Source: Elusimicrobiota bacterium (GTDB lineage Bacteria > Elusimicrobiota > Elusimicrobia > Elusimicrobiales > UBA9959). Taken from it: a DNA stretch of 43,871 bases. The notes under the pieces are model-generated. The model saw only the letters and a program-made list of their open reading frames with translations. It was not told where the DNA came from and made no database searches. The DNA lies in NCBI GenBank assembly GCA_016209085.1, contig JACQWV010000110.1, positions 1-43,871 of the forward strand, read 5' to 3'. Of this stretch, positions 22,505-38,754 are shown piece by piece (within the stretch, counting starts at the first letter, position 1; each line of letters opens with the position of its first letter). The position numbers and the translations under genes were made by a program.

Positions 22505-25500
22505 ATGAAAAATATAAAAAATAAAATAACAAGTCTTTATAGTTTTGCTTTAAAAATTATGTTTTTTACCTTTTTTATCTTTTCTTATCTATTTCCTCTA
22601 CTTCCCCATAACCTCTCCCCTATATCATTCCTCTATGCCGACCCCCCCATAAAATTCACCTATCAGGGCAATATCCGTCAGGACGGCATACTTATAAACG
22701 GAAATAGAACCATATCTTTTAGCGTGTATGATTCTTCTTATGCTCCCGCGGCATTATGGACAAGCAATCCTGAAAGCGTGTCAATTTCAACCGGAGTTTT
22801 CAGGCTTGAACTTGAGCCAAACATAAATACTCAAGACTGGAATAAGGAATTATGGCTTGAAATGGAAATACAAGGCGTGAAATTAAGTCCGCGCGAAAAA
22901 ATAAATTCGTCCATTTATTCCATCAATACCCTGCTTCATTCAGGAAAAAAATATACCACTTCTGCAACCCAGCCTTCGTCGCCGTCCCTTGGAGACCTAT
23001 GGATGGATACTGCCACAAATACGCTCAAATTCTACAATGGTTCCGGGTGGACATCAACCGCAGGCTCTGGCGCTCCACACGCAACTACCCATGCACAAGG
23101 AGGCGGCGATGCCATAACAAACCTTGGGTCTCACACTGTTACAGGAGACATTACATTAACCGGTCAGATAACCGCGTCTTCTTTTACTGCTACAAGCGCT
23201 TTAGGCGCAAAAATTGCAAGGATAGAATACGGAACAAATATAGCGGTCTCATCAGCCGCTGCGGCAAACTATGGCGGGGTATATATTTCAACCCATGCTT
23301 ATTTAAACGGCGATTTACATGCCATTAAATTATTTGGGGACATATCCGGAACTTCAGGTTTGCCGTCTGGCGACAATTTGGGAAATCATGTGGCTACCAC
23401 AACACTGAAAATGGCTGGCTTTGGTATTCTTAACAGCGGTAACGTAAGCGCTTCCTCTTTCACGGCAACAGGCACAGGCGTGTCTGCCGCGCAACTGCGG
23501 CTGGCGGACAATGTGCTGGTGTCTTCCGAAGCGCTTTCTTCTCTTGGCGCGGGCGTGCGCGTATCCACCAATATGTATATAGTGGGTTTCTCCTCGGCCG
23601 CCAAGTATTACGGCGACGGTTCAGGGCTTACCAATCTCCCAGCAGGACCCGGCGACAATCTCGGCAATCATACAGCCTCGCAGAATTTAAGCATGGCAGG
23701 ATTTGACATTGTCAATGTGGACACAATAACCGCGCAGACGCAGGGGATTTACTTAGGAACGCATGTGTTTGTAACCCAGGGCAACTTAGGAATCGGAACG
23801 ACAAGTCCTGGAGCAAAACTTGATATCGCCGGCCAGGTAAAAATAACCGGCGGATCCCCCGGGTCAGGCAAGGTGCTTACATCAGACGCTGCAGGCCTGG
23901 CCACATGGGGCACGGCAGCAGTCGCCGATAACCTTGGCAATCATGTGGCTACGACAACATTGAACATGGCGGGATTTAATATTACGAGCGTTTCAACCAT
24001 CACAGTAAGTTCAATAACCACAACCGTAGCAAGCGTAACATTCAGCACGAATGTCTATATAGTAGGGTTCTCCTCGGCTGCCAAGTATTATGGCGACGGT
24101 TCAGCGCTTACCAATCTTCCAGCTGGACCTGGCGATAACTTAGGCAGTCATATTGCCACAACAACTTTGGATATGGCCGGGTTTAATATTGTTAAAGCTG
24201 CTACGATTACGGCAAGCGGGCAGGGAGTATATTTAGGAACGCATGTTTTTGTAACGCAGGGCAACTTCGGCATCGGAACCACGAATCCAAGCACAAAACT
24301 GGAAGTTAAAGGACAAGTAAAGATTGTGGATGCCAGCCAGGGAGCGGGCAAAGTTTTAACATCAGATGCAAATGGTTTAGCCAGCTGGCAGACTCCCGGG
24401 GCAGGTTCGGGCGACAATTTGGGAAATCATGTGGCTACGACAACCTTACAGATGGGCGCTTACGGCGTGAACACCTCCAGCCACATCAGCGCAGCTGCCT
24501 TTCAAATAAAGGGCAGCACAATGGTGGCTGTATTGCCCGGTATAGACAGTATTGCTTACGGCGTATATGCAGGAACCAGCAATATAACAGGCGGGGATTA
24601 TAATGTTTTTATCGGAAATTATGCAGGAACATCCAACACGAACGGAAATAATAACACGGCGAACGGTTATTTTGCACTCCGCTCCAACACCACCGGTAAT
24701 GGTAACACAGCGAACGGCGTTTCTGTTCTCTACTTCAATACAACGGGCAATTACAACACCGCGAACGGCTATGCTGCCCTCTACTCCAACACGAGCGGCA
24801 TTTATAATACAGTGAACGGTATGGGTGCCCTCTACTACAACACGACCGGCTCCGATAACACCGCGAACGGTTATAAAGCTTTTTACTTCAATCAAACAGG
24901 TTCTGCTAATTCTGTTGTAGGTTATCAAGCTGCTTATGGCGTATCCGGGAATTCCTTTTCAAGCTCAACGATTATGGGTTATCAGGCAGGGTATGGTCTG
25001 ACTACCGGTTCTGATAACACTTTCTTTGGCTGGCAGGCAGGGTACAATGTAACAAGCGGAACAGGCAACATAATTATTGGATATAACCAAAATGCGCCAT
25101 TAGCGACAACTAATAATTTCCTTAACATCGGCGGCGTACTTTACGGCGACTTGTCAGCAAAGACCATAGGGATAAGCACCCGCGCGCCGCAGGCCGCGCT
25201 GGACATTGTTTCCACCGGCACTGCTGCAAATCAGATGGCGCAAATCTGGCGGGACGGTTCAGGCGTGATAGTCGGCTCTATGTCGGCTACCGGCGTGTTT
25301 AAAGCGGTAAAACTTTTGGGCGACGGCTCAGGGCTTACCAATCTCCCAGCGGGACCCGGCGACAATCTGGGCAATCATACGGCCACGACAACATTAAACA
25401 TGGCTAATTATGGAATAATAAATGTCTCAACTTCTACTTTTAATGGATATATAGATGTAAAAAGTACAGAGGGATACAAAATAGATGGTGTTACTGTACT

Positions 25501-27316
25501 TAGAAGTTCTTCTGCTTTAAATAGCACTTTTATAGGACAAAATGCAGGTAGGATAAATACCGGGAACTCTAATACTTTTGCAGGCTATAATGCAGGCTAC
25601 AATAACACTACGGGCAGTGAGAACGCCTTTTTTGGTCTTAACACAGGCCTATATAATACTACGGGCGCTAATAACGCCTTTTTTGGTTCTTATGTAGGCC
25701 GCGCTAACACTACAGGCGGTATGAACGCCTTTGTAGGTTCTCTTGCAGGCTACCTTAACACTGAAGGTGGGGGGAACTCCATTTTAGGTGCTTATGCAGG
25801 CTACGAAAACACTACAGGCTCTTATAACTCTATTGTGGGTTATTATGCAGGCTTAAGAAATCAAACAGGTAACTATAATTGTATATTTGGCTCTCTTGCT
25901 GGCGGTTCTGCTGGTAGTGCTAATTCTTTTTCAAGCTCAACGATTATGGGATATAAGGCAGGCTATAACCTAACCACTGGAAGCGATAATTTGCTTTTGG
26001 GATTTCAGTCAGGGGACAGTTTAACCACAGGTTCAAGGAATATAATCATCGGTTACAATACAGATGCTCCCTTGGCAACGACAAATGACCACATGAACAT
26101 CGGTAATTTAGTATACGGTAATTTGTCCATCGGCAACGTGGGAATCGGAACGACCGACCCATTAGCAAAACTTGAAGTAGCCGGTCAGATTAAAATCACC
26201 GGCGGAACGCCTGGCGCAAATAAGGTTCTTACCTCTGATGCAGCGGGTTTGGCAACATGGCAAACGCCAGCCAGTGGTGCGGGTGACAATTTAGGAAATC
26301 ACATAGCAACAACTACATTAAGCATGGCTGGATTTAATATAACCAACATCGCCACAATGACTGCAAGCGGCCAAGGCATCTACTTGGGCACGCATGTGTT
26401 TGTAACCCAGGGTAATCTTGGCATTGGCACAACAGCAACGGCCTATAAACTGGATGTCCAAGGTCCTATTAATTTAAATGATTTCACCGACTTCAACAAC
26501 GGCAGCACAGGGAGAATCACTTGGGGCAGTGGCCAGTTCATAATGACATCCAAAGGCATTTATGACATGGTATTGGCGACGAATGACTCATTGGTTCGTT
26601 TAATAATCAAAAAGGACAGCGGCAATGTCGGCATCGGGACGACGGGGCCGGACCAGAAACTGACTGTGGCCGGAAACATCAGCCAGACAGGCGTGCTGAT
26701 CTCCAGCGGCACAGGAAACAACTATTTCGCCGGCAACATCGGCATTGGGACCACGGATCCTGGAGCGAAATTGCAAGTCGGCGATGGTAGCGCCGATATA
26801 CGGACACTGGTCAAATCGAATAACTCATATCAGTTTGGAGCCATGAATTCTTCCGGAAATGCTTTCTATTATGGCGTGACTCAAGACGTAATTCCTAATG
26901 GTGTTATTAGCAATTATGCCGGTACAGCGATAATTACTTTTCTCAATAACGGCAATGTCGGCATCGGGACGACGGGGCCGGGAAGCAGGTTTGAGGTAGT
27001 AGGCGGCAGTTCAACATTCAGAGGCAGTGACAGTAATTCAGCGATAGCAGGGTTTACGGATGCGGGCGGGAATTACAGGGTAATGATTTCAACAACAGGC
27101 AACGTCGGCATCGGTACGACGAGTCCTCAAAGTACTCTTCATGTTCCTGATGGGAAGTATGCGCAGTTTGAGGATAACAACGCCGGAGTTCCTCCAGCCG
27201 CGGATTGTGATGCGGATGCTGAGAGAGGACGATTCAGTATTGACACAACAAATAACAGACTCTATATATGCAATGGAGCAACAAGAGGCTGGGATTATAT
27301 TACGTTGACGGATTAG
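22505..27316 (+). CDS. Giant tail-fibre/YadA-like repeat surface protein
   Basis: 1603 residues. A long hydrophobic signal region (about 1-46) precedes a domain reading KFTYQGNIRQDG ... SFSVYDSS ... VSISTGVFRLELEPN ... KLSPREKINSSIYSI, the N-terminal module common in secreted proteins with fibre-like tails. Then come repeated units: YYGDGSGLTNLPAGPGDNLG, NHVATTTLxMAGFxI, and GIGTTxPxAKLxIxGQVKI. Two blocks (about 679-810 and 1002-1142) are YadA-head-like (NTTGSDNTANGYKAxx). No outer-membrane anchor, chaperone peptidase or sorting domain is visible at the end (ICNGATRGWDYITLTD). A GAGG ribosome-binding site precedes the ATG. Likely a trimeric beta-rich fibre on the cell surface; the function in adhesion is inferred. 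Confidence 0.88.
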   Translation: MKNIKNKITSLYSFALKIMFFTFFIFSYLFPLLPHNLSPISFLYADPPIKFTYQGNIRQDGILINGNRTISFSVYDSSYAPAALWTSNPESVSISTGVFRLELEPNINTQDWNKELWLEMEIQGVKLSPREKINSSIYSINTLLHSGKKYTTSATQPSSPSLGDLWMDTATNTLKFYNGSGWTSTAGSGAPHATTHAQGGGDAITNLGSHTVTGDITLTGQITASSFTATSALGAKIARIEYGTNIAVSSAAAANYGGVYISTHAYLNGDLHAIKLFGDISGTSGLPSGDNLGNHVATTTLKMAGFGILNSGNVSASSFTATGTGVSAAQLRLADNVLVSSEALSSLGAGVRVSTNMYIVGFSSAAKYYGDGSGLTNLPAGPGDNLGNHTASQNLSMAGFDIVNVDTITAQTQGIYLGTHVFVTQGNLGIGTTSPGAKLDIAGQVKITGGSPGSGKVLTSDAAGLATWGTAAVADNLGNHVATTTLNMAGFNITSVSTITVSSITTTVASVTFSTNVYIVGFSSAAKYYGDGSALTNLPAGPGDNLGSHIATTTLDMAGFNIVKAATITASGQGVYLGTHVFVTQGNFGIGTTNPSTKLEVKGQVKIVDASQGAGKVLTSDANGLASWQTPGAGSGDNLGNHVATTTLQMGAYGVNTSSHISAAAFQIKGSTMVAVLPGIDSIAYGVYAGTSNITGGDYNVFIGNYAGTSNTNGNNNTANGYFALRSNTTGNGNTANGVSVLYFNTTGNYNTANGYAALYSNTSGIYNTVNGMGALYYNTTGSDNTANGYKAFYFNQTGSANSVVGYQAAYGVSGNSFSSSTIMGYQAGYGLTTGSDNTFFGWQAGYNVTSGTGNIIIGYNQNAPLATTNNFLNIGGVLYGDLSAKTIGISTRAPQAALDIVSTGTAANQMAQIWRDGSGVIVGSMSATGVFKAVKLLGDGSGLTNLPAGPGDNLGNHTATTTLNMANYGIINVSTSTFNGYIDVKSTEGYKIDGVTVLRSSSALNSTFIGQNAGRINTGNSNTFAGYNAGYNNTTGSENAFFGLNTGLYNTTGANNAFFGSYVGRANTTGGMNAFVGSLAGYLNTEGGGNSILGAYAGYENTTGSYNSIVGYYAGLRNQTGNYNCIFGSLAGGSAGSANSFSSSTIMGYKAGYNLTTGSDNLLLGFQSGDSLTTGSRNIIIGYNTDAPLATTNDHMNIGNLVYGNLSIGNVGIGTTDPLAKLEVAGQIKITGGTPGANKVLTSDAAGLATWQTPASGAGDNLGNHIATTTLSMAGFNITNIATMTASGQGIYLGTHVFVTQGNLGIGTTATAYKLDVQGPINLNDFTDFNNGSTGRITWGSGQFIMTSKGIYDMVLATNDSLVRLIIKKDSGNVGIGTTGPDQKLTVAGNISQTGVLISSGTGNNYFAGNIGIGTTDPGAKLQVGDGSADIRTLVKSNNSYQFGAMNSSGNAFYYGVTQDVIPNGVISNYAGTAIITFLNNGNVGIGTTGPGSRFEVVGGSSTFRGSDSNSAIAGFTDAGGNYRVMISTTGNVGIGTTSPQSTLHVPDGKYAQFEDNNAGVPPAADCDADAERGRFSIDTTNNRLYICNGATRGWDYITLTD
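24541..24930 (+). repeat. YadA-head-like repeat block 1 in the surface protein
   Basis: Repeats of about 16-20 residues of the form N-T-T-G-x-x-N-T-A-N-G-Y-x-A-L, encoded by partly conserved nucleotide units (AACACGACCGGC..., GCGAACGG). Typical of trimeric left-handed beta-roll heads. Confidence 0.75.
25510..25930 (+). repeat. YadA-head-like repeat block 2 in the surface protein
   Basis: A second set with a different consensus, N-T-T-G-x-x-N-A-F-F-G-x-x-x-G-x-x, encoded with lower GC and different codons from block 1. Suggests separate origin or rapid divergence of the two blocks. Confidence 0.7.
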
Positions 27317-28059: not shown

Positions 28060-29217
28060 ATGTATATAAAAAGATTGATAGAAAAAACAATTGAACAGGT
28101 CAGGACCACTTTTCCGGCTGTAGTCATTACAGGTCCTCGGCAATCAGGTAAAAGCACGCTTCTTAAACATATTATCCAAGATCCAGACCGCATTGTTACT
28201 CTTGAAAATCCCGATGTGCGTTTGCTGATAATGGAAGACCCATTGTTTTTTCTTCAGTCGCGCAAAAAACCGCTTGTCCTTGACGAGATTCAGTATCTTC
28301 CCATTATTACAACGTATCTAAAAATCTTCATAGACAAGGAAAGGATTCCGGGGCAATGGTTTATTACCGGCTCACAGCAGTTTTCCGTTATGAAAAATGT
28401 TTCGGAATCTCTTGCAGGCAGGGCCGCTATTCTTGTTCTTCCGCCGTTCCATCTCCAGGAACGAAAAGATGTTAAGAATCTCGGGGATTTTATGTTTTCA
28501 AGCAGCTATCCCGAACTTTGTGTGAAGAAAAATATAAACAGAACAATCTGGTTTTCCAGTTATCTTCAGACATATCTGGAAAGGGATTTGCGTGCATTGA
28601 TTAATGTAAACGACCTCAAAGATTTTGAACAGTTTCTCCGCTTGCTTGCCGCCCGCGCGGGGCAGATACTTAATCTTTCCGGGATTTCAGCTGAGATGGG
28701 CATAAGCGTGCCTACTGTGAAAAGGTGGGTATCTGCTCTTGAGGCAAGTTATATCGTTTATCTCCTGCCTCCGCTCTACAATAACTACGGAAAACGGATA
28801 ATAAAATCGCCTAAATTGTATTTTTACGATATGGGGCTATTGAATTATCTTTTAAGGATGCCGGACGCACAAACCCTTCTGAATTCCCCGTTGGCCGGGG
28901 CGCTGTTTGAAAATGCAGTAGTATCCGAGATACTTAAAAAAAAATTAGCCGAAGGAATACAGCCGGAACTTTATTTTTGGCGTTCCCAGAGCGGAGTGGA
29001 AATAGATTTAATAACCAGGGAAAATGGAAGGTTTATTCCTTATGAGATTAAATTGTCCTCCATTATTCGGCCGCAGTTTTTTAAAAATCTGGCATACTGG
29101 CTGGCGCTGGAAAAAGACGGAGGGCCTGGCCGTCTTATCACAAATTGCTCGCAAGACTTACCTATGCCTCATGGCATTAAAAATATTCATTGGGAAAATC
29201 TGGGGTTAGGGGGGTAG
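28060..29217 (+). CDS. AAA-type ATPase with DUF4143 domain
   Basis: The N-terminal AAA_14-like ATPase has Walker A GPRQSGKSTLL (about residues 25-35) and Walker B KPLVLDEIQYLP. The C-terminal DUF4143 part (SSYLQTYLERDLRALINV, SVPTVKRWVSALEASYIVYLLPP, LYFYDMGLLNYLL, YFWRSQSGVEIDLI) includes a nuclease-like D...E-x-K pattern typical of this widespread family. Cellular role is unknown; the family is scattered and often laterally transferred. It stands as its own unit with its own promoter. Confidence 0.92.
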   Translation: MYIKRLIEKTIEQVRTTFPAVVITGPRQSGKSTLLKHIIQDPDRIVTLENPDVRLLIMEDPLFFLQSRKKPLVLDEIQYLPIITTYLKIFIDKERIPGQWFITGSQQFSVMKNVSESLAGRAAILVLPPFHLQERKDVKNLGDFMFSSSYPELCVKKNINRTIWFSSYLQTYLERDLRALINVNDLKDFEQFLRLLAARAGQILNLSGISAEMGISVPTVKRWVSALEASYIVYLLPPLYNNYGKRIIKSPKLYFYDMGLLNYLLRMPDAQTLLNSPLAGALFENAVVSEILKKKLAEGIQPELYFWRSQSGVEIDLITRENGRFIPYEIKLSSIIRPQFFKNLAYWLALEKDGGPGRLITNCSQDLPMPHGIKNIHWENLGLGG

Positions 29218-29343: not shown

Positions 29344-31074
29344 ATGAATAAAACATGGAGACGTGCTTTTATCTTATCGGCAGCCGGGGTTTTGCTATTC
29401 GGCTTTTCCTTGTTGAAAGCCGGAAGTCCGGGTTCAAGCGGAGGATTGTTTTTAAATTATTCTCCTGGTCCAAGGGGCTCGGCTATGGCGGACGCTTTCA
29501 GTTCAATAACCGACGACGCTTACGCAAGTTATTTTAATCCAGCTGGTTTGAGTGATGTTGAAAACTTTCAGTTTGGCACTACCTATAATTTGTCGTTTGA
29601 AGGGATTAGACATCAATATCTTGTTTTCGCTTACCCTTATAAACCCGGAAATGTGTTTACTTTGAACTACAACGGTTTATCTTATGGCAATATAGACGGT
29701 TATGACGCCGTCGGAACAACGAAATGGAATATAGACGCGGGAGATTTCTCTCTGGGCTTTTCTTACGGGAAAACTCTGACAAAAGACGAGATTGAAAGGC
29801 CGGTTTTAAACGCCGGGGGAACGTTTAAATATATAAATGAAAAATTGGACAATGTCTCAGCAAGAACTTTTGCTTTTGATTTAGGGGCAGTTTACGCTTT
29901 GCGCCCTGATAAATACTGGCTTAAAAAAATTCAGGCGCAAGAATTCAGATTTTCCGCCGTCGCCAAAAATATAGGGCCAGGACTTAAGTTTGATAAAGAG
30001 TCTTCTCCTTTGCCAATGTCTTTTATTTTGGGCTCTTCGTGGCATATGCATCCATGGGGAAGCCATAAATTAATACTCGCTTTGGATAATGTTTTCGCGG
30101 TTGATGATAAATATAAAATTTGTTTCGGCGCGGAATATTTTCTCTTTCAACTGTTGGGGGTGAGATTTGGATATGAAACCAATAAATACATAGGTTCAAA
30201 ATTCAGATTTGGCGTGGGTTTCAGGCTTTCTTTTGTGGACATTGATTATTCCATGACTCCTTTCGGCGAATTGGGCAATATGCAGAAAATAGGAATTTTG
30301 GCGAGATTCGGATATAAAAAAGAGAAACAGCCTTTAAAAGGCGAAATTATGAGGGTTGAAGACGCTAAAGTTGTCGCTCCCAGAGAAAAAATTGAAGAGC
30401 TTCAAACATTCGCCGCGGATTTTACTAAATTGGCGGAAAAGAATATTGTAGAACGCGACTATCTATCGGCCGAACAAAACTTAAAGAAAGCTTTTAATCT
30501 GGAGCCGAATTTGAGAAATGACAAATGGGGGAAAATAGAAAAAAATCTAAGCGAGATAAACAAGGAAATGAAATTTGAGGAAATGCCCGAAAAACTCGGG
30601 GTTTTAAAAGGCGGCGGAGAACAGGCGGATTTGGCGCACAGAACCATAAGAAATTTTATAAATGGCGAAAACGACAAGGCGTATCTTCTTGCTCATATAA
30701 CTTATGGAACGGACCTAAATGGAAATACAATTTATGAGGAATTGTTGAACGCTATTTGCAAATTTTTGGGAAGAGGCGTCACAAGAGACGCAATATTGCC
30801 GGAAAAGTCCTGGATAACGCAAAAATCTAAAAGTTCGGCAAGTTATTTCTACACCAGGGAGTTTAACAAGGTCGTTCGGGAATGCGAGGAAATTATTTTG
30901 ATTGACGACTCAAATTATATCGTCTGGTCAAGGTTAGGTTCGGCTTATTATATGCTCGGAGATTATGAAAAAGCGAAAAAAGCGTATTTGAAAGCGGTTG
31001 AGATAAATCCCTCAGACGGGGCTACCTTGGAGTTTTTGAAAGAAAAAGGATGGATGAAAGATAAGGCAGAATGA
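29344..31074 (+). CDS. PorV/FadL-like outer-membrane barrel with C-terminal TPR region
   Basis: A signal peptide is followed by the PorV/UPF0164 hallmark GPRGSAMADAFSSITDDAYASYFNPAGLS, then about 300 residues of alternating beta-strand sequence ending near ILARFGYKK (residue about 327), giving a beta-barrel. The remaining 240 residues are helical, with TPR units including YIVWSRLGSAYYMLGDYEKAKKAYLKAVEINP, facing the periplasm or surface. In Bacteroidota PorV shuttles type IX cargo. The barrel-TPR fusion could link the outer membrane to the motor genes downstream. A TAAAAT box lies 6 nt before the ATG with no ribosome-binding site. Confidence 0.85.
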   Translation: MNKTWRRAFILSAAGVLLFGFSLLKAGSPGSSGGLFLNYSPGPRGSAMADAFSSITDDAYASYFNPAGLSDVENFQFGTTYNLSFEGIRHQYLVFAYPYKPGNVFTLNYNGLSYGNIDGYDAVGTTKWNIDAGDFSLGFSYGKTLTKDEIERPVLNAGGTFKYINEKLDNVSARTFAFDLGAVYALRPDKYWLKKIQAQEFRFSAVAKNIGPGLKFDKESSPLPMSFILGSSWHMHPWGSHKLILALDNVFAVDDKYKICFGAEYFLFQLLGVRFGYETNKYIGSKFRFGVGFRLSFVDIDYSMTPFGELGNMQKIGILARFGYKKEKQPLKGEIMRVEDAKVVAPREKIEELQTFAADFTKLAEKNIVERDYLSAEQNLKKAFNLEPNLRNDKWGKIEKNLSEINKEMKFEEMPEKLGVLKGGGEQADLAHRTIRNFINGENDKAYLLAHITYGTDLNGNTIYEELLNAICKFLGRGVTRDAILPEKSWITQKSKSSASYFYTREFNKVVRECEEIILIDDSNYIVWSRLGSAYYMLGDYEKAKKAYLKAVEINPSDGATLEFLKEKGWMKDKAE

Positions 31075-31197: not shown

Positions 31198-32136
31198 ATG
31201 GAAATATTTTTTGTCATAGGGATACCGGTATTGATGCTGGTTCTTGGAGGCGCCTTTCTGGCAGTTGTCAAGACAACCGGTTTTCTTGAATCAAGTTATT
31301 TTAACACAAGACAAAAAATTTCAAACGCGGTGATACAAAATTATATGCAGGTAATAGGCATGGCTCAGACTCAAATATATCAAAGAAGCAAAGAACTTGA
31401 ATTTATCAGTCAGAAACTGGCTTTGAGCAATGAGGAATTGGCGAGATTGAACGATATGAAGTCTAAATTTTTATCCATGGTTGTGCACGACGTGCGCAGC
31501 CCGCTGGCTTCAATTAAAGGTTTCAGCGAATTGCTGATGAAAATAAGAACGGATGAGAAAAGCAAAATATATGCGGATAATGTAATAAAGGCTTCCGAAC
31601 ACATGGCAAGGCTCGTTTCCGATTTGACGGATTTGGCCATGATAGAAGCTGGAAAACTAAGAATAGAAAAAAGCCTTTTTCACTTTCCCGATGCGGCGAC
31701 TTACATCCTGCCTTCAATGAGAGTGCATGCGGAAAAACAGGGAGTAATTTTAATTGAACATCCTTTGCTGGAAGGAATTTATGTGAACGGAGACAGATTT
31801 AGACTTTCTCAGGTTCTTATGAACTTGCTTAATAACGCGATTAAATTTACTCCAGCTGGCAAGACTGTTGAACTTATGTTCAGAAAAGAAGGGCAGAGTG
31901 TTTTGACTATAGTCAAAGATTCGGGTATTGGGCTGCATCCGAGCGATATTCAAAAAGTTTTTGAAAAATTTTATCAAGCACAACATCAAAAAGACGAGAA
32001 TTTGAGAGAAAAAGGTTGGGGACTCGGTTTGTCCATAGCGCAAGAGATTGTTCACGCGCATAAAGGAGAAATCTGGGTTAACAGCAAGGGGCTCGGCAAA
32101 GGCTCCACTTTTATTTTTAAGGTGCCAATGGCGTAA
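31198..32136 (+). CDS. Membrane-anchored sensor histidine kinase
   Basis: 312 residues: one N-terminal membrane helix (about 2-24), a coiled linker, HisKA with phospho-acceptor H97 (SMVVHDVRSPLASIKGFSELL), and HATPase_c with N box LMNLLNNAIKF, G1 DSGIGL and G2 GWGLGLSIAQEIV. There is no recognisable periplasmic sensor domain, so the input is probably membrane- or contact-based. It is followed 42 nt later by motA and is the likely partner of one of the response regulators at 19-21 kb. A TATACT box lies 10 nt before the ATG with no ribosome-binding site. Confidence 0.93.
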   Translation: MEIFFVIGIPVLMLVLGGAFLAVVKTTGFLESSYFNTRQKISNAVIQNYMQVIGMAQTQIYQRSKELEFISQKLALSNEELARLNDMKSKFLSMVVHDVRSPLASIKGFSELLMKIRTDEKSKIYADNVIKASEHMARLVSDLTDLAMIEAGKLRIEKSLFHFPDAATYILPSMRVHAEKQGVILIEHPLLEGIYVNGDRFRLSQVLMNLLNNAIKFTPAGKTVELMFRKEGQSVLTIVKDSGIGLHPSDIQKVFEKFYQAQHQKDENLREKGWGLGLSIAQEIVHAHKGEIWVNSKGLGKGSTFIFKVPMA

Positions 32137-32178
32137 AATAGCCAATAGCGAAATAGGGAATTGCAGTTAAGGAGAAAC

Positions 32179-32919
32179 ATGGACTTAATGAGTTTAAGCG
32201 GAATAACTATATTCGCGATTATATTTGGAGCGGGCGTAATTTTAGGCGAATTCACCAAAGTTTTTCTAAATATTCACGCTTTTCTCATTGTCATCGGAGG
32301 GACTCTGGCCGCCACCCTGATAAACACGCCTTTTAAGTATATAAAAAAATCTCTGGATGGATTGAAATTGATTTTTTGGGGAAGCGACTCCGAATCTGCT
32401 GATAAAACAATTTTGTATATGGTGGAATTGGCGGAAAATGTTAAAAGAAATGGATTCAAAGTCTTTAAAGATGTAGATGAGAATATGGCGGGCGGGTTTC
32501 TCAAACAAGTATGCGAAGCCGCCATTGAATACAGCGATTCGCAATTCGTCAAAAAAGTGATTGAGGACGAGATAAATTATTCTTTTGACGAAGCCAACGA
32601 GATAAGCAATGTTTTCAGAACGATGTCTCTGCTCTCTCCTATGTTTGGTTTGGTAGGCACTTTGATAGGAATTATAGCGGTGCTAAAAGAACTTTCAAAT
32701 CCGGAAAGCGTGGGCCCGGCTATGGCGGTAGCGATAACGAGCGCATTTTACGGAATCATTTTTTCCAATCTCGTTTTTATACCGATAGCGGGGAAAATAA
32801 GAATAAAGTCCATAATGCGAGTGAAAATGAAAATAATGATTTTGGAGGGAGTTCTTGAAATGATGAAAGGCAGTATTCCCATAATGGTGGAAAGGAGATT
32901 GAAGGCTTTTAATAAATAA
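32179..32919 (+). CDS. motA: MotA-like stator protein
   Basis: Inner-membrane stator subunit that forms an ion channel with MotB. Start at 32179 because AAGGAG lies just before it. Four membrane segments: two near the N-terminus (ITIFAIIFGAGVILG; AFLIVIGGTLAATLI), then a cytoplasmic loop, then LLSPMFGLVGTLIGIIAVL and AMAVAITSAFYGIIFSNLVFIPIAG. The RTMSLLSPMFGLVGTLIG stretch is the MotA/TolQ/ExbB core with the MotA-type proline. 246 residues. It is the first motor gene of a cluster with a FliF-FliG fusion and MotB, which argues for rotor-stator work rather than TonB energising. Confidence 0.93.
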   Translation: MDLMSLSGITIFAIIFGAGVILGEFTKVFLNIHAFLIVIGGTLAATLINTPFKYIKKSLDGLKLIFWGSDSESADKTILYMVELAENVKRNGFKVFKDVDENMAGGFLKQVCEAAIEYSDSQFVKKVIEDEINYSFDEANEISNVFRTMSLLSPMFGLVGTLIGIIAVLKELSNPESVGPAMAVAITSAFYGIIFSNLVFIPIAGKIRIKSIMRVKMKIMILEGVLEMMKGSIPIMVERRLKAFNK

Positions 32920-33034: not shown

Positions 33035-34594
33035 ATGTACAATAAGCGAGGATTTATGCGCGAAATAACATTAGTGTTTTTATTGTTTTTGTTTTTTCCC
33101 GTCATGAGTATATATTCTCAAGATGACTTGCCGTTTCAATATAAAGCCAAATACGAAGAATTTTTGGCGAAAAAAGCAGACGATGTTTTGGTTAAAATAC
33201 TGGGGCCGAATCAGGCGAAAGTGATAATTGAAACGGTAATGGATTTTACAAAGACTGAAAAAGTTGAATATGAAAAGGATAAAAAGAAAGAAAAAACATC
33301 TTTTAAGATGGAAGGGGAAGCAGGAGACATAAGCGCCATTGAATATTTGATGCCGGGTTTCGGTATTCCCGGCGCGGAATCTAAAAATGAAAACAAATCA
33401 TACGTGAAACAATTCTCTTATCCGCGTTTTTTTATACAGAAAATAAAAGCCACGATATTGGTAAACAAGAGTTTAAGCGAAGAAGAAATTCTTAATATTC
33501 AAAATATGGTATCCGAAATTCTTACTCTGGACAGGAAAAGGGGAGATGAAATGGTAGTTGTGAGAGCGATATTCGCTCCTTTTTGGAAAACGATATGGTA
33601 TAACCCGGAATCCATGAATTTTATAGTAAAATACGTCATTCTGAGCATATTGGGCGTGATAGGTCTCCTTGTTGTGGCGGCGGGATTTTTAAAATTGGCC
33701 GGCGCCATGAACACTATGACAAAAGTTCAGCAGTCTCATCAGATAACCATGGATTTGGCGGGCGGTTCGCCTTTGCCCGGACAGAATCAAAATCTTGGAA
33801 CACTTTCGTTTATAGAGGAAAAAAAAGACGAAAAAGAAAAGAAAGAACATGAACCGCGAGTTTCTGACGATAAAATTTATTTTGATATCAAACCGCATCA
33901 GATAGACGCTCTTGTCAGCATTATGGTCAATGAAGACCCTTCCAATGTGGCTATAGTGGCGGATCATCTGAGGGAAGATGTGAAAAAAGATTTTTTTGCC
34001 AGACTCCCGCCGGATTTCGCCGCGGATGTGGTCGCCGGGCTTTCAAAAATGAGATTTCTTGAAAACGATGTCGTGCTTAAGTTTAAAGATGAACTGGAAA
34101 CGAGACTTTCCGGCGTGATGGGAGGACTCCAGAACGCTTTGTCCGTTTTTCAGAGATTGAGCGCGAGAGGAAAGTCGGAAATGATTAAAAATCTGGAACA
34201 AAAACATCCGCAATTGTCTCTGGAATTGAGAAAAAGAGTTTTTATATTTGAGGATATAAAATTACTGGATGACAACGATTTGTCACTGCTTGTTTCCGCC
34301 GTAGACATAAACGACTTGACGAAAGTTTATAAGGTTATAGACGAAGAGTTTAAGTCAAAAATAAAATCCCAGCTTTCGCAAACCGCGTGGAGAATAATAG
34401 AGGAAAGAAATTTGTATGAAAGCTATTCGGAAGAAAAAATAGACGATTCTATAAATAATATAAGCGCGCAAGCGAATAAACTTTTTGAAGACGGAAAAAT
34501 TAAAAAACCGGATATTCAATCAGAATACGCGGCGATTGAAGCGAATAATGAAATTGTTCCATTGAAAAAATTACAAGACGCAGGCAATACTTAG
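33035..34594 (+). CDS. Natural FliF(C-terminal ring domain)-FliG fusion, rotor protein
   Basis: 519 residues uniting two flagellar-type modules. After a signal-anchor (8-28), residues 38-183 match the last periplasmic ring domain of FliF: ILGPNQAKVIIETVMDF, a low-complexity loop, then QKIKATILVNKSLSEEEILNIQ and RGDEMVVVRAIFAPF. A membrane helix (196-222) follows, then a charged linker, then FliG (284-492): NEDPSNVAIVADHL, LPPDFAADVVAGLSKM, and the torque domain FIFEDIKLLDD (403-413). FliF's N-terminal ring domains are absent. A rotor ring anchored in the membrane and driven by the adjacent MotA/MotB is the obvious inference. The ribosome-binding site fits a 16-codon frame at 33021 better than this ATG; 33056 is another candidate start. 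Confidence 0.9.
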   Translation: MYNKRGFMREITLVFLLFLFFPVMSIYSQDDLPFQYKAKYEEFLAKKADDVLVKILGPNQAKVIIETVMDFTKTEKVEYEKDKKKEKTSFKMEGEAGDISAIEYLMPGFGIPGAESKNENKSYVKQFSYPRFFIQKIKATILVNKSLSEEEILNIQNMVSEILTLDRKRGDEMVVVRAIFAPFWKTIWYNPESMNFIVKYVILSILGVIGLLVVAAGFLKLAGAMNTMTKVQQSHQITMDLAGGSPLPGQNQNLGTLSFIEEKKDEKEKKEHEPRVSDDKIYFDIKPHQIDALVSIMVNEDPSNVAIVADHLREDVKKDFFARLPPDFAADVVAGLSKMRFLENDVVLKFKDELETRLSGVMGGLQNALSVFQRLSARGKSEMIKNLEQKHPQLSLELRKRVFIFEDIKLLDDNDLSLLVSAVDINDLTKVYKVIDEEFKSKIKSQLSQTAWRIIEERNLYESYSEEKIDDSINNISAQANKLFEDGKIKKPDIQSEYAAIEANNEIVPLKKLQDAGNT

Positions 34595-34627: not shown

Positions 34628-35704
34628 ATGGATAGAGAAGAGAAAAAGTCTATTTTTTCATCTATATCCGACGCGGATAAAGCGCGGGAAAATTTTTCTA
34701 AGTTTTCGCAGGATTCCGCCTCAAACGCGGATATAATTTCAATTAAAAAAAATCTGGAGAACATGGAAAGAACATTGGCAAAGTTGGACGATATTGACAA
34801 ACAATTTCTGTTGATTGGAGACAAGCTTAGTGAAAATGAAAAAAAGCTGGGACAATATAAGGCGATTTTTGAAAATGGTTCCAAAATCGCCGGTAATCCC
34901 GGCAATGAAACGGCTGCGAAAATAAACAGGTTGGAAGAAAAACTGAGTTTTTTCTGCGATAAGATAAGCAAAACAATTTCAAATTTCATAGCGAACGATA
35001 GGGTTCAAGAAATAATAGATTTTGAAAAAAACATTATCCGTGATATCGCTTATCTAAAAGAGGAAATATCCTCCACAAATCGGAAAATTGCGGATGGAGG
35101 GAAAGATTCCGGAGCAGAAATTTTAAACCGTCTTTTGGAGTCAAATAATATTTTGGAATCGCGGGAATCTTCGCTTGAAAAAGCCCTTAAAGCTTATATG
35201 GAAAACACGGTTTCTGAATTGGGCAAAATAAAAGAAAACATGTCTCAATTGCTGAACAATTCAAAAACAGATGCCTCAAAAGAAGCCCTTGAGAAAATCT
35301 CATCTTCTATCAGTTCTGAATTGTCCGAGCAGATTTCGCAATTTCATGAAAACAACAAAAAAGATATCTTGAAAGGACACGAAGACCTAAAAGACGAAAT
35401 ATTTTTATTTCTCAAAGAGTTCTTTTTTGGGGCGGAGACGATAACCGACTTTAAGAACCTGTTTTTTTCAACACTTTCCATTTATAAACTCAACAATGAA
35501 CTAATAACGGCTATGGATAAAATGGTTTCCGATATTGACATATTCATTGACATTGCAGAGCAGAAACTCCCGCTCTCCGCGAATGATCTGCTTCTGAGGA
35601 AAAATCATATAAATTTTAAAAAAGCTTTTATAATTTATAAACAGAAAGTTGAAGATTTCGGCGGATTGAAGGAAAAAATATCCAAATATATAAAGACTCC
35701 ATAA
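34628..35704 (+). CDS. Cytoplasmic coiled-coil protein of the motor cluster
   Basis: 358 residues, highly charged, no signal peptide or membrane segment. Two heptad-rich stretches (about 38-85 and 145-225) predict long coiled coils; the C-terminal third (LKEFFFGAETITDFKNLFFSTLSIYKLNNELITAMDKM) is a more compact helical domain. I recognise no family. The position between the rotor fusion and MotB, with 33-nt and 7-nt gaps, means co-expression with the motor; a linker, regulator or FliH-like scaffold role is possible but not shown. Confidence 0.85.
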   Translation: MDREEKKSIFSSISDADKARENFSKFSQDSASNADIISIKKNLENMERTLAKLDDIDKQFLLIGDKLSENEKKLGQYKAIFENGSKIAGNPGNETAAKINRLEEKLSFFCDKISKTISNFIANDRVQEIIDFEKNIIRDIAYLKEEISSTNRKIADGGKDSGAEILNRLLESNNILESRESSLEKALKAYMENTVSELGKIKENMSQLLNNSKTDASKEALEKISSSISSELSEQISQFHENNKKDILKGHEDLKDEIFLFLKEFFFGAETITDFKNLFFSTLSIYKLNNELITAMDKMVSDIDIFIDIAEQKLPLSANDLLLRKNHINFKKAFIIYKQKVEDFGGLKEKISKYIKTP

Positions 35705-35711
35705 AGTAATT

Positions 35712-36404
35712 ATGCCTGTTTACAGAATAAGAAGAGACGAACTTGAAAATCAATTAAACAAAAGCGCTCTATGGGCGGTAACTTATGGAGATTTGATGAG
35801 TTATTTGATGATACTTTTTTTAGTTCTGTTTTCTTTCAGTCTGGTGAAATCGGACAGGGCAAAAAGCCGGAAATACGAGGAGTCTCTTTCCAGCATACAA
35901 AAGGTGTTCGGAGGAGAAGAAAGCAAGGAAAGATTGGCAAGAGTCAAAGCAATGGAATGCGAGGATACGGTTGTCAGCGGTTTGCAAAAATCGCTTGAAA
36001 CCAACGCGCTTAAAAATCTGGTAAAAATGGAATTAAACGAAAGCAGGGTAAAACTGATTTTGTCTGAGGCAATTATTTTTGATTCCGGCAAAGCCGATTT
36101 AAAAGAAACCGCCAAAAATGTTTTGACGCCTATAATTGAAGAACTGAAAAAAGTGCCAAATGGTATTATAGTAGAAGGACATACTGATATGCTCCAGATA
36201 AAAAGCGGAAAATATAAAAACAATTGGGAACTTTCAATGGCAAGAGCCTACGCGGTTATAGAGTTTATGGAAAACGCTGGCATAGATTCTAAAAGACTGG
36301 CAGGCATAGGGTATGGACCAAATAGACCTGTAGAGGATAATTCAACGCCAGAAGGCAGAACGAAAAACCGCAGAATAGAGATTTCTCTTATTAAAACACA
36401 ATAA
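35712..36404 (+). CDS. motB: MotB-like stator protein with OmpA-type peptidoglycan-binding domain
   Basis: 230 residues. A single membrane helix (20-44) carries the MotB signature WAVTYGDLMSYLMILFLVLFS with the ion-binding aspartate D27. A plug/linker follows, then an OmpA-like domain (about 115-228): IIFDSGKADL, VEGHTDM, ELSMARAYAVIEFM, RLAGIGYGPNRPV, RTKNRRIEI, which anchors the stator to peptidoglycan. The universal Asp is intact, so ion-driven function is likely. The start lies 7 nt after the coiled-coil gene's stop. Confidence 0.95.
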   Translation: MPVYRIRRDELENQLNKSALWAVTYGDLMSYLMILFLVLFSFSLVKSDRAKSRKYEESLSSIQKVFGGEESKERLARVKAMECEDTVVSGLQKSLETNALKNLVKMELNESRVKLILSEAIIFDSGKADLKETAKNVLTPIIEELKKVPNGIIVEGHTDMLQIKSGKYKNNWELSMARAYAVIEFMENAGIDSKRLAGIGYGPNRPVEDNSTPEGRTKNRRIEISLIKTQ

Positions 36405-36429
36405 TGTTTATCCGGATTTGTTAGGAGAA

Positions 36430-38754
36430 ATGAGTTTGGATGGCTTTTCCATTCTGCTTGGAGACAGGCAAGTGGGGAAAAATTTTTTGTTAGAACAAAT
36501 TGTGAGAAAAGTTTTATTTGCTCTTTTTTTAATTATGCCAAAGAACGTGTTTTGCGCGGATTACATGCGTTCTTACGCTTTAATACACGCTTTTCCTTCG
36601 GATTTCGCGGATTTTAAAAAAGAAAATCTTGACGAGGTAGAATTTCCGAAAGGTCTTTTTTCCGTCCGGCAGTCAAGTCAAAGCGTTTCAACCGGAACAG
36701 CCGCACTGCGGCCGGAACAACGAGCCTCTGGCTCATCAAGTGCAGGGGGCTCTGTCCCCCTGCCACAGGTGTCGGAGGCTATGCCGACGACCGGAACCCT
36801 GACCTCTCCTGAAATAAAAGCCATATTTCCGTTTGACAGGATTATTCTTTCCGCAAACGCGGTTCTGGCAGGAGAGGATTCCATGACCCTGGAAATCCAG
36901 ATAAAAAATTCAAAAGAGCAATGGAGCAGGTGGTTTAACGCCGGCATTTTCCGGGGGAATGGCCAGTCTGAAAGCCAAAAGGAACAGGAAGACGGGTCCG
37001 GGAAAATGGAAGTGGATGTTTTGAAGTTAAACGGTACTTCGGAATATTTCCGTTATAAAATAACGTTCAAATCCGGCGGAGCGGATTCCCCTGCTGTGTT
37101 GAAACTGGCTGCGATAACTTACGCAAATTCCTTAAGAACATACTATGAAAAAGCGGCTCTGGAAAAATCAAAGAACTTCAGGCCGGTCAAACTGGATGTG
37201 CCGAAAATTTCGCAGGCGATTCAGCAGGTAAATTACAAAGGCGACATCTGCAGTCCGGTTTCTCTTGCTATGGTTTTAAGTTATTACGGAATATATGAAA
37301 ATCCCATTGATGTCGCGGCAAAAGTCTACGACAAACCGGAGAACATTTACGGGAACTGGGTATTTAATACGGCTTATGCCGGAACAATGAGCCTTTATTC
37401 TTTTGTCGCCGCTATAAATACGCTGCAGGAAGCTGAAAAACTCCTGATGAAGGGAATACCCTTGATAGCGAGCATAACTTTCGGCCCTGATGAATTGAAA
37501 AACTCGCCCATGAACAATACAAAAGGCCATCTGCTCGTGATTAAGGGATTTGACAAAAAGGGCAATGTGATAACAAACGACCCTGCGGCTCCTGAAGAAA
37601 AAACCGTTGAAAGGGTCTATGACAGGGCTGAATTTGCAAGGGCATGGCTGAAAAATAAATTCGGAGTATCCTATATCATTAATCCGCGATTTTTTGACGA
37701 AGTGACTGTAAAATCGTCTTATGCCGATATATATTCGGAAAACGGGGTTCCAAAACTCATTGAAACGCAGGCTCTTATGAACGAGAAACTGAGACTTCTT
37801 GAAACACATGGAGACCGGGCCAGAGTTGAAGCTCTTGAGCAGACGACAATGGCCGGAACAGCCGCACTGCGGCCGGAACAACGAGCCTCTGGCTCATCAA
37901 GTGCAGGGGGCTCTGTCCCCCTGCCAAAGGTGTCGGAGGCTATGCCGACGACCGGAAAAAACTCAAAAAAACTCGTTCCTTACGCGGGTTGGATTCAATT
38001 AAAAAATCTTGCCGTTGACATGGCCGGCGGATTTGACCCGTTCGGCTCTGCTCAGGGTTACTGCGTAGTAAAAGACAAAATCGCTGAAATAGAGCCGGAC
38101 AATAACGGGAATAAAAAAATCACGGTTTCAGCCGGAACGAAATTCAGGATTCTTGAGAAAACAGGCGCAAAATTAAAAATCATGATTCCGGGCGGGAAAT
38201 CCGGGTTCATAAACGAAAAACATGTAAACTATCTGAATAAACCGCTTCCTTCAGCAGAAATCCTAAGGAAAAAAATCATTGAAGCGACAAGGCAGTTCCT
38301 GGGCGACAAATATTACTGGGGAGGGCGATCCGGGTTCGGAATTGACTGCTCCGGCCTTGTAAATATTGTTTACAGGATTAACGGGATTGAACTTTCAAGG
38401 AACGCAGACGACCAGTTTTCTGCCGCGAAATCCATTTCAAGAGAAAATTTAAAACCCGGAGATTTAATATTCTCCACAGGCGAAACAAATCACGCCTCTA
38501 AGGGGGTTCACCCCGTTAGAAATCCGCCCTGCCCGAAGGGCACGGCGGCAGCCGCCTCGGGGCGGCTTATTTCTAACGGGGTGAATCACGTAATGCTTTA
38601 CGCCGGAAACGGCAGACTCATAGAAGCGACGCAGGACGCCGGCTCCGTGAGGGAAATATCTTTCATGGAAAAATTCGGAATTGATTTTGCAAAAGCCAAA
38701 AACGGAATGACCATAAACGGAAGAAAGATATATTTTAGAACTGTATTTAAATAA
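36430..38754 (+). CDS. Exported double cysteine-peptidase: C39-like plus SH3-like plus NlpC/P60
   Basis: Residues are numbered from 36418. A signal peptide (KVLFALFLIMPKNVFCA) is followed by a linker, a C39-like papain fold with C278 (GDICSPVSLAM) and H371 (TKGHLLVIKGF), an SH3-like segment (SAGTKFRILEKTGAKLKIMI) and an NlpC/P60 domain with C644 (GIDCSGLVN) and H724 (NHVMLYAG). Expected to cut peptidoglycan stem peptides or cross-links in the periplasm. Three palindromic elements are translated within it: two 105-bp copies (92-126, 479-513) and one family-A copy between the NlpC Cys and His (697-723). I take ATG 36430 (TAGGAG before it); GTG 36502 is favoured by the duplicated 5' fragment at 18786. 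It follows motB closely. Confidence 0.88.
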   Translation: MSLDGFSILLGDRQVGKNFLLEQIVRKVLFALFLIMPKNVFCADYMRSYALIHAFPSDFADFKKENLDEVEFPKGLFSVRQSSQSVSTGTAALRPEQRASGSSSAGGSVPLPQVSEAMPTTGTLTSPEIKAIFPFDRIILSANAVLAGEDSMTLEIQIKNSKEQWSRWFNAGIFRGNGQSESQKEQEDGSGKMEVDVLKLNGTSEYFRYKITFKSGGADSPAVLKLAAITYANSLRTYYEKAALEKSKNFRPVKLDVPKISQAIQQVNYKGDICSPVSLAMVLSYYGIYENPIDVAAKVYDKPENIYGNWVFNTAYAGTMSLYSFVAAINTLQEAEKLLMKGIPLIASITFGPDELKNSPMNNTKGHLLVIKGFDKKGNVITNDPAAPEEKTVERVYDRAEFARAWLKNKFGVSYIINPRFFDEVTVKSSYADIYSENGVPKLIETQALMNEKLRLLETHGDRARVEALEQTTMAGTAALRPEQRASGSSSAGGSVPLPKVSEAMPTTGKNSKKLVPYAGWIQLKNLAVDMAGGFDPFGSAQGYCVVKDKIAEIEPDNNGNKKITVSAGTKFRILEKTGAKLKIMIPGGKSGFINEKHVNYLNKPLPSAEILRKKIIEATRQFLGDKYYWGGRSGFGIDCSGLVNIVYRINGIELSRNADDQFSAAKSISRENLKPGDLIFSTGETNHASKGVHPVRNPPCPKGTAAAASGRLISNGVNHVMLYAGNGRLIEATQDAGSVREISFMEKFGIDFAKAKNGMTINGRKIYFRTVFK
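36692..36796. repeat. Palindromic element family B, 105 bp, copy 1
   Basis: Starts and ends with CCGGAA, contains a GGGGGCTCTGTCCCCC hairpin and spans exactly 35 codons (TGTAALRPEQ...SEAMPTTG). It differs from 37853-37957 at a single base. Confidence 0.9.
37853..37957. repeat. Palindromic element family B, 105 bp, copy 2
   Basis: 104 of 105 bases match copy 1 (CACAGG becomes CAAAGG, Q to K), in the same frame and orientation, placed between the C39-like and SH3-like domains. Near-identity implies recent spread or gene conversion. Confidence 0.9.
38507..38585. repeat. Palindromic element family A inside the NlpC/P60 domain
   Basis: 17-bp perfect inverted ends (TTCACCCCGTTAGAAAT / ATTTCTAACGGGGTGAA) and the same GCCCTGCCCGAAGGGCACGG interior as the obg copy. 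It reads HPVRN...LISNGV, inserted between ASKGV and NHVMLYAG of the catalytic domain. Confidence 0.88.

Follow-up and report, generated by a model that had tools for sequence, protein, structure and literature searches.

Gene organization of the locus

We analysed a stretch of 43,871 nucleotides of an Elusimicrobiota bacterium (contig JACQWV010000110.1, assembly GCA_016209085.1), referred to here as the window. The genome has a size of 2.35 Mb and is 98% complete. The ORF at 33035-34594 encodes a protein of 519 residues which joins parts of the flagellar rotor proteins FliF and FliG in one polypeptide. It lies in a group of genes which are all encoded on the + strand:

29344-31074 (+), PorV/PorQ-family outer-membrane protein with C-terminal TPR (NF033709, 142 bits against a cut-off of 90)
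31198-32136 (+), membrane-anchored histidine kinase (HisKA, HATPase_c)
32161-32919 (+), MotA stator subunit (PF01618, 4e-18; best NCBIfam match flagellar motor protein, 151 bits); listed with a TTG start, but MDLM... at 32179 is likelier
33035-34594 (+), FliF(RBM3)-FliG(M,C) fusion, the proposed rotor subunit; the likelier start is the ATG at 33056
34628-35704 (+), cytoplasmic coiled-coil protein without a membrane helix, found at the same place in relatives and fast-evolving
35712-36404 (+), MotB stator subunit with plug and OmpA-like peptidoglycan-binding domain (PF13677, PF00691)
36418-38754 (+), C39-like/NlpC-P60 peptidase, 13 bases after MotB; not conserved in relatives, so that its membership in the system is uncertain

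Two further features were noticed upstream of the motor genes: a secreted repeat protein of 1603 residues (22505-27316) without Pfam or NCBIfam match, and an ATPase gene (28060-29217) similar to three ATPase genes in a row at another locus (L005, 15008-18946), which look like the AAA/DUF4143 type by eye.

Domain architecture of the FliF-FliG fusion protein

The fusion protein is composed of the following parts:

33035-33118 (+), N-terminal signal peptide or hydrophobic helix (residues 1-28)
33131-33568 (+), FliF ring-building motif 3 (RBM3; residues 33-178), alpha-beta-beta-alpha-beta, with a short, poorly modelled insert (residues 73-130) where FliF has its beta-collar
33635-33691 (+), single transmembrane helix (residues 201-219; helix 191-242 in the model)
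33908-34120 (+), FliG middle domain (residues 292-362)
34187-34501 (+), FliG C-terminal, stator-facing domain (residues 385-489)

Pfam analysis identified YscJ_FliF_C (PF08345) at residues 52-178 (E 1.4e-8), FliG_M (PF14841) at residues 292-362 (4e-7) and FliG_C (PF01706) at residues 385-489 (3.6e-14), all above the curated cut-offs. FliG_M and FliG_C were found in 24 of 24 aligned members. A profile of 24 relatives, searched against solved structures, matched FliG with an E-value of 2.4e-50 and FliF with 3e-6. The AlphaFold model shows the RBM order helix-strand-strand-helix-strand (residues 33-56, 61-70, 133-144, 149-163 and 172-178), followed by the long helix 191-242 and by the FliG helices from residue 287. 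A Foldseek search with the full model gave FliG MC first (2e-10) and FliF RBM3 next. For a model of residues 29-245, the first 18 hits were FliF RBM3/collar structures (E 5.5e-8 to 1.7e-6), while SpoIIIAG (3e-3) and PrgK/EscJ (about 1e-2) came far behind, so that an assignment of the N-terminal part to SpoIIIAG or SctJ was rejected. The models are of moderate confidence (mean pLDDT 73 and 70), and the segment 73-130 is not resolved.

The initial annotation described a natural fusion of the FliF C-terminal ring domain to FliG, and this observation is confirmed. However, its statement that a full FliG is present is wrong. The FliG family model matches only from position 118 of 338, and only about 42 disordered, low-confidence residues lie between the membrane helix and the FliG helices, so FliG_N, the domain that normally holds FliF, is missing. 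Weak PF14842 hits in some members overlap the M domain. The FliF ring domains RBM1 and RBM2 (YscJ_FliF, PF01514) are absent from the protein. In addition, the N-terminus contains an extra helix (residues about 10-28) which looks like a cleavable signal peptide according to hydropathy; in many relatives the segment ends in A-x-A followed by Q. The in-frame ATG at 33056 has GAGG a few bases upstream and is the likely start. The natural fusion has thus removed both sides of the normal FliF-FliG contact and replaced them with a covalent linker.

Placement of the N-terminal part in an unrelated family and joining of two genes by an assembly frameshift had been named beforehand as possible refutations, and neither came true. 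The N-terminal part is placed in FliF RBM3 and in no other family. A frameshift or chimera is excluded, as three paralogues in the same genome have the same architecture, and so do about 30 relatives with open frames, almost all without stops. Identity to the closest relative dips only in the linker and at the two ends, and we found no evidence in favour of an artefact.

Four fusion genes and two types of gene cluster

While the initial annotation covered a single fusion, the genome carries four, each in its own gene cluster. The additional copies are located on the contigs C103 (35% identity), C85 and C52. The alignment of the four paralogues lacks conserved stretches suitable for a DNA-pattern scan. 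The genome has three MotA genes for the four fusions, and the C103 paralogue has no MotA/MotB beside it. PorV-family proteins are located beside every cluster, and the match is above the cut-off for three of the four clusters.

In ten relatives of the same family, PorV, histidine kinase, MotA, fusion and MotB are present in 10 of 10 loci, in the same order and mostly with one or more ORFs of coiled-coil length between fusion and MotB. In one locus (L090, on contig C46 of genome G122), two fusion genes of the window type flank a single MotA gene.

The second type, represented by C52, adds a C-terminal TPR to the fusion. Its order is giant surface protein, PorV/TPR, fusion, coiled coil, FlbD, MotA, MotB and lipoprotein, and the conserved cluster contains no kinase. 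The giant protein (about 2,600 residues, with an FlgD_ig-like C-terminus) is found directly upstream in most loci (L051, 2-7753, and homologues; L007, 14059-15222, in the genome of the window). FlbD (L007, 7105-7377; PF06289, 3.7e-26) is otherwise tied to flagella. MotA is found in 29 of 33 loci of this type. Of the other four, L052 and L053 are short contigs which end before it, and L068 and L100 lack it within the stretch examined. Large or secreted proteins with FlgD_ig or CHU_C type-IX-like C-termini are located beside two of the clusters in the genome. A further fusion of 946 residues (L101, 7035-9875) has about 320 extra residues before the RBM3 domain, without Pfam match to the extra part.

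Flagellar and type IX components

FliM/FliN, FlhA of the type III export gate, and the FliF N-terminal ring family were not detected anywhere in the genome. The lack of rod, hook and filament proteins is inferred from these absences. In the phylum, FlhA was found in 5 of 336 genomes (G110, G116, G166, G168 and G187). G110 has a full flagellar and chemotaxis cluster on one contig (C78; loci L095 and L096) and a fusion cluster on another, so the two are different systems, although contamination of that bin cannot be excluded. The flagellar genes in these few genomes stand against published statements that flagellar genes are absent from Elusimicrobiota (PMC11257099, PMC7031533); here too, bin contamination is not excluded.

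A diverged SprA/Sov-like protein (L083, 158-5560), not linked to the cluster, is present in the genome with 118 bits in three stretches, below the family cut-off of 200. Similar proteins occur in 289 of 336 genomes of the phylum, including gut lineages that lack the fusion. GldM was found in 0 of 31 genomes of relatives.

Distribution and phylogeny

The fusion profile matches 154 of 341 genomes in Elusimicrobiota (177 matches less 23 outside the phylum). At least two of these, G116 and G166, are explained by separate flagellar FliG, and a few others are partial, so that the fusion occurs in about 150 genomes. The small-genome lineages f2/g14 and f2/g18 are not among the matches. The 29 named loci of the C52 type all come from Elusimicrobia/Elusimicrobiota records or from records titled only 'bacterium', so that sequence relatives, too, place the genome in Elusimicrobiota by inference. 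Outside the phylum, 23 of about 53 sampled genomes match. All but one are matches to the FliG part alone, nearly all in frames of about 340 residues, with separate FliF frames seen in several. The exception, G383 from another phylum, has both halves of a divergent fusion in one frame of 655 residues (L137, 8822-10777), part of which is masked in the data, next to small outer-membrane-like proteins and a TPR-like lipoprotein. The fusion is therefore not strictly private to Elusimicrobiota.

A tree of FliG M-C domains groups the window/C103 type and the C52 type in two well-supported clades, with the flagellar FliG of G110 and G116 outside both. The tree did not resolve whether the fusion arose once: a single origin is not rejected (p 0.22), several branches are long, and two rows labelled canonical are Elusimicrobiota ORFs, of which L119 starts at a contig end and L128 is short.

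Conservation of functional residues

The ion-binding Asp of MotB (D32 in E. coli) and the channel prolines of MotA (Pro173 and Pro222) are present in every aligned copy. In contrast, the E. coli torque pairs (MotA R90 with FliG D288/D289, MotA E98 with FliG R281; PMC12505986) are not preserved. MotA of the window type has mostly Arg or Lys at position 90 and Lys at position 98 (Arg in one). In FliG of this type, positions 281, 288 and 289 are mostly K/T, Q/E and T/S/K/R. The C52 type has Lys90 and mostly Glu98 in MotA, against Gly, Glu and Ile at the three FliG positions. Torque by the known contact is thus not demonstrated. The EHPQ motif, which binds FliM in flagella, has become E-D/E-P-x in most copies, in keeping with the absence of FliM.

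Proposed function

The simplest reading, which we hold with moderate confidence, is that the protein is the rotor subunit of a non-flagellar, ion-driven rotary motor. In this view, many copies form a ring in which the RBM3 domains pack side by side in the periplasm, the single helix crosses the inner membrane, and the attached FliG M-C domains form a cytoplasmic ring, with the fusion replacing the usual contact between the FliF tail and FliG_N. The neighbouring MotA and MotB would form the stator, with MotB anchored to peptidoglycan, and ions passing the MotB Asp would turn MotA against FliG_C. With no FliM/FliN there would be no classical switch, and with no export gate, rod or hook, rotation would not be used to build or turn a filament. 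The periplasmic ring would most likely pass it to the co-encoded PorV/TPR outer-membrane protein and large secreted surface proteins, either to drag adhesins along the cell (gliding) or to energise their export and placement. Our data establish the architecture, the domain homology, the multiplicity, the synteny, the conserved ion-path residues and the absence of those core flagellar families that were searched, whereas ring formation, rotation, coupling to PorV and the output of the motor are inferred. Laboratory FliF-FliG fusions assemble and rotate (PMC10128058), and a proton-dependent motor drives adhesin movement and secretion in Flavobacterium (PMC8986121), a precedent for the proposed output. 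We found no isolate or phenotype for this lineage.

The interpretation in the initial annotation, a motor that no longer builds a filament, is supported by the absence of FliM/FliN, FlhA and the FliF N-terminal ring family. Its wording, however, implies descent from a flagellum by loss, which our tree neither shows nor excludes.

Alternatively, the motor may be mainly the energiser of a type-IX-like secretion system, taking the place of the absent GldL/GldM motor and having no motility role. The PorV-family proteins of the clusters, the type-IX-like C-termini of neighbouring secreted proteins, the diverged SprA-like protein and the lack of GldM in 31 relatives would fit, but this remains a less likely possibility: the SprA match is below the cut-off, and SprA-like genes occur in most genomes with or without the fusion, so secretion through SprA cannot depend generally on this motor and any link to type-IX-like machinery may be indirect. 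A non-rotating use, with the ring as a static scaffold or envelope sensor feeding the histidine kinase and MotA/MotB as a gated ion channel or load sensor, appears improbable. The kinase is a fixed neighbour in the window type, the E. coli torque charges are lost and switch proteins are missing, yet FliG_C and both stator subunits are kept with their ion-path residues across the phylum, and the second type retains MotA/MotB without a kinase in the conserved cluster. A functionless remnant of a decaying flagellum is very unlikely. Although the protein is a subset of flagellar parts, such decay is contradicted by four paralogues, open frames and strict synteny across a phylum, and recent decay is not favoured, given the rarity of FlhA and the coexistence of flagellar and fusion clusters in G110.

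Comparison with known systems

The flagellar MS-ring and C-ring rotor (FliF and FliG of Salmonella and Vibrio) shares the RBM3 fold, the membrane helix, the FliG M and C domains and the partnership with MotA/MotB. The fusion differs from it in being one polypeptide without FliF RBM1/RBM2, without the first FliF membrane anchor in the usual place, without FliG_N and FliM/FliN, and with no export gate detected. Laboratory fusions (Salmonella; Vibrio FliFG, PMC11481574, PMC6079021) have the same covalent join, which keeps a 1:1 ratio, but are artificial joins of flagellar proteins (a full-frame fusion in the Salmonella case), whereas the present one is natural and trimmed of the interface on both sides. 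The GldL/GldM motor of type IX secretion and gliding in Bacteroidota (PMC8986121) also combines an ion-driven MotA/MotB-like stator with PorV-type and large surface proteins. GldM was not found here, and the MotA of the window is nearest to flagellar MotA models. GldLM is not known to have a FliF/FliG rotor. The Agl/Glt gliding machinery of Myxococcus is another non-flagellar use of a MotA/TolQ-family motor for surface movement, with no FliG or FliF rotor parts known. SpoIIIAG and SctJ/PrgK ring proteins share the RBM fold, but show a much weaker structural match than FliF RBM3 and have no FliG.

Literature searches for a natural FliF-FliG fusion or an Elusimicrobiota motor, restricted to open-licence papers, revealed only artificial fusions and no earlier description, and a recent MotAB survey (PMC12505986) does not mention this phylum in its main text. 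We regard the protein as a variant of the flagellar rotor-stator, with a real chance that it is the motor of a new machine. More tentatively, it may represent a new class of envelope-spanning rotary machine, widespread in Elusimicrobiota, in which a ring of fused FliF-FliG driven by MotA/MotB moves giant surface adhesins through PorV-type outer-membrane proteins, giving flagellum-free surface movement, with up to four different versions in one cell.

FliG-driven rotors are not known outside flagella. A trimmed rotor-stator set that is conserved across a phylum described as lacking flagella and non-motile (PMC11257099, PMC7031533) would show that the flagellar torque generator can work apart from the export gate and filament. 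It would bear on how the motor and export parts of flagella came together, and it offers a minimal rotor of one polypeptide for structural work.
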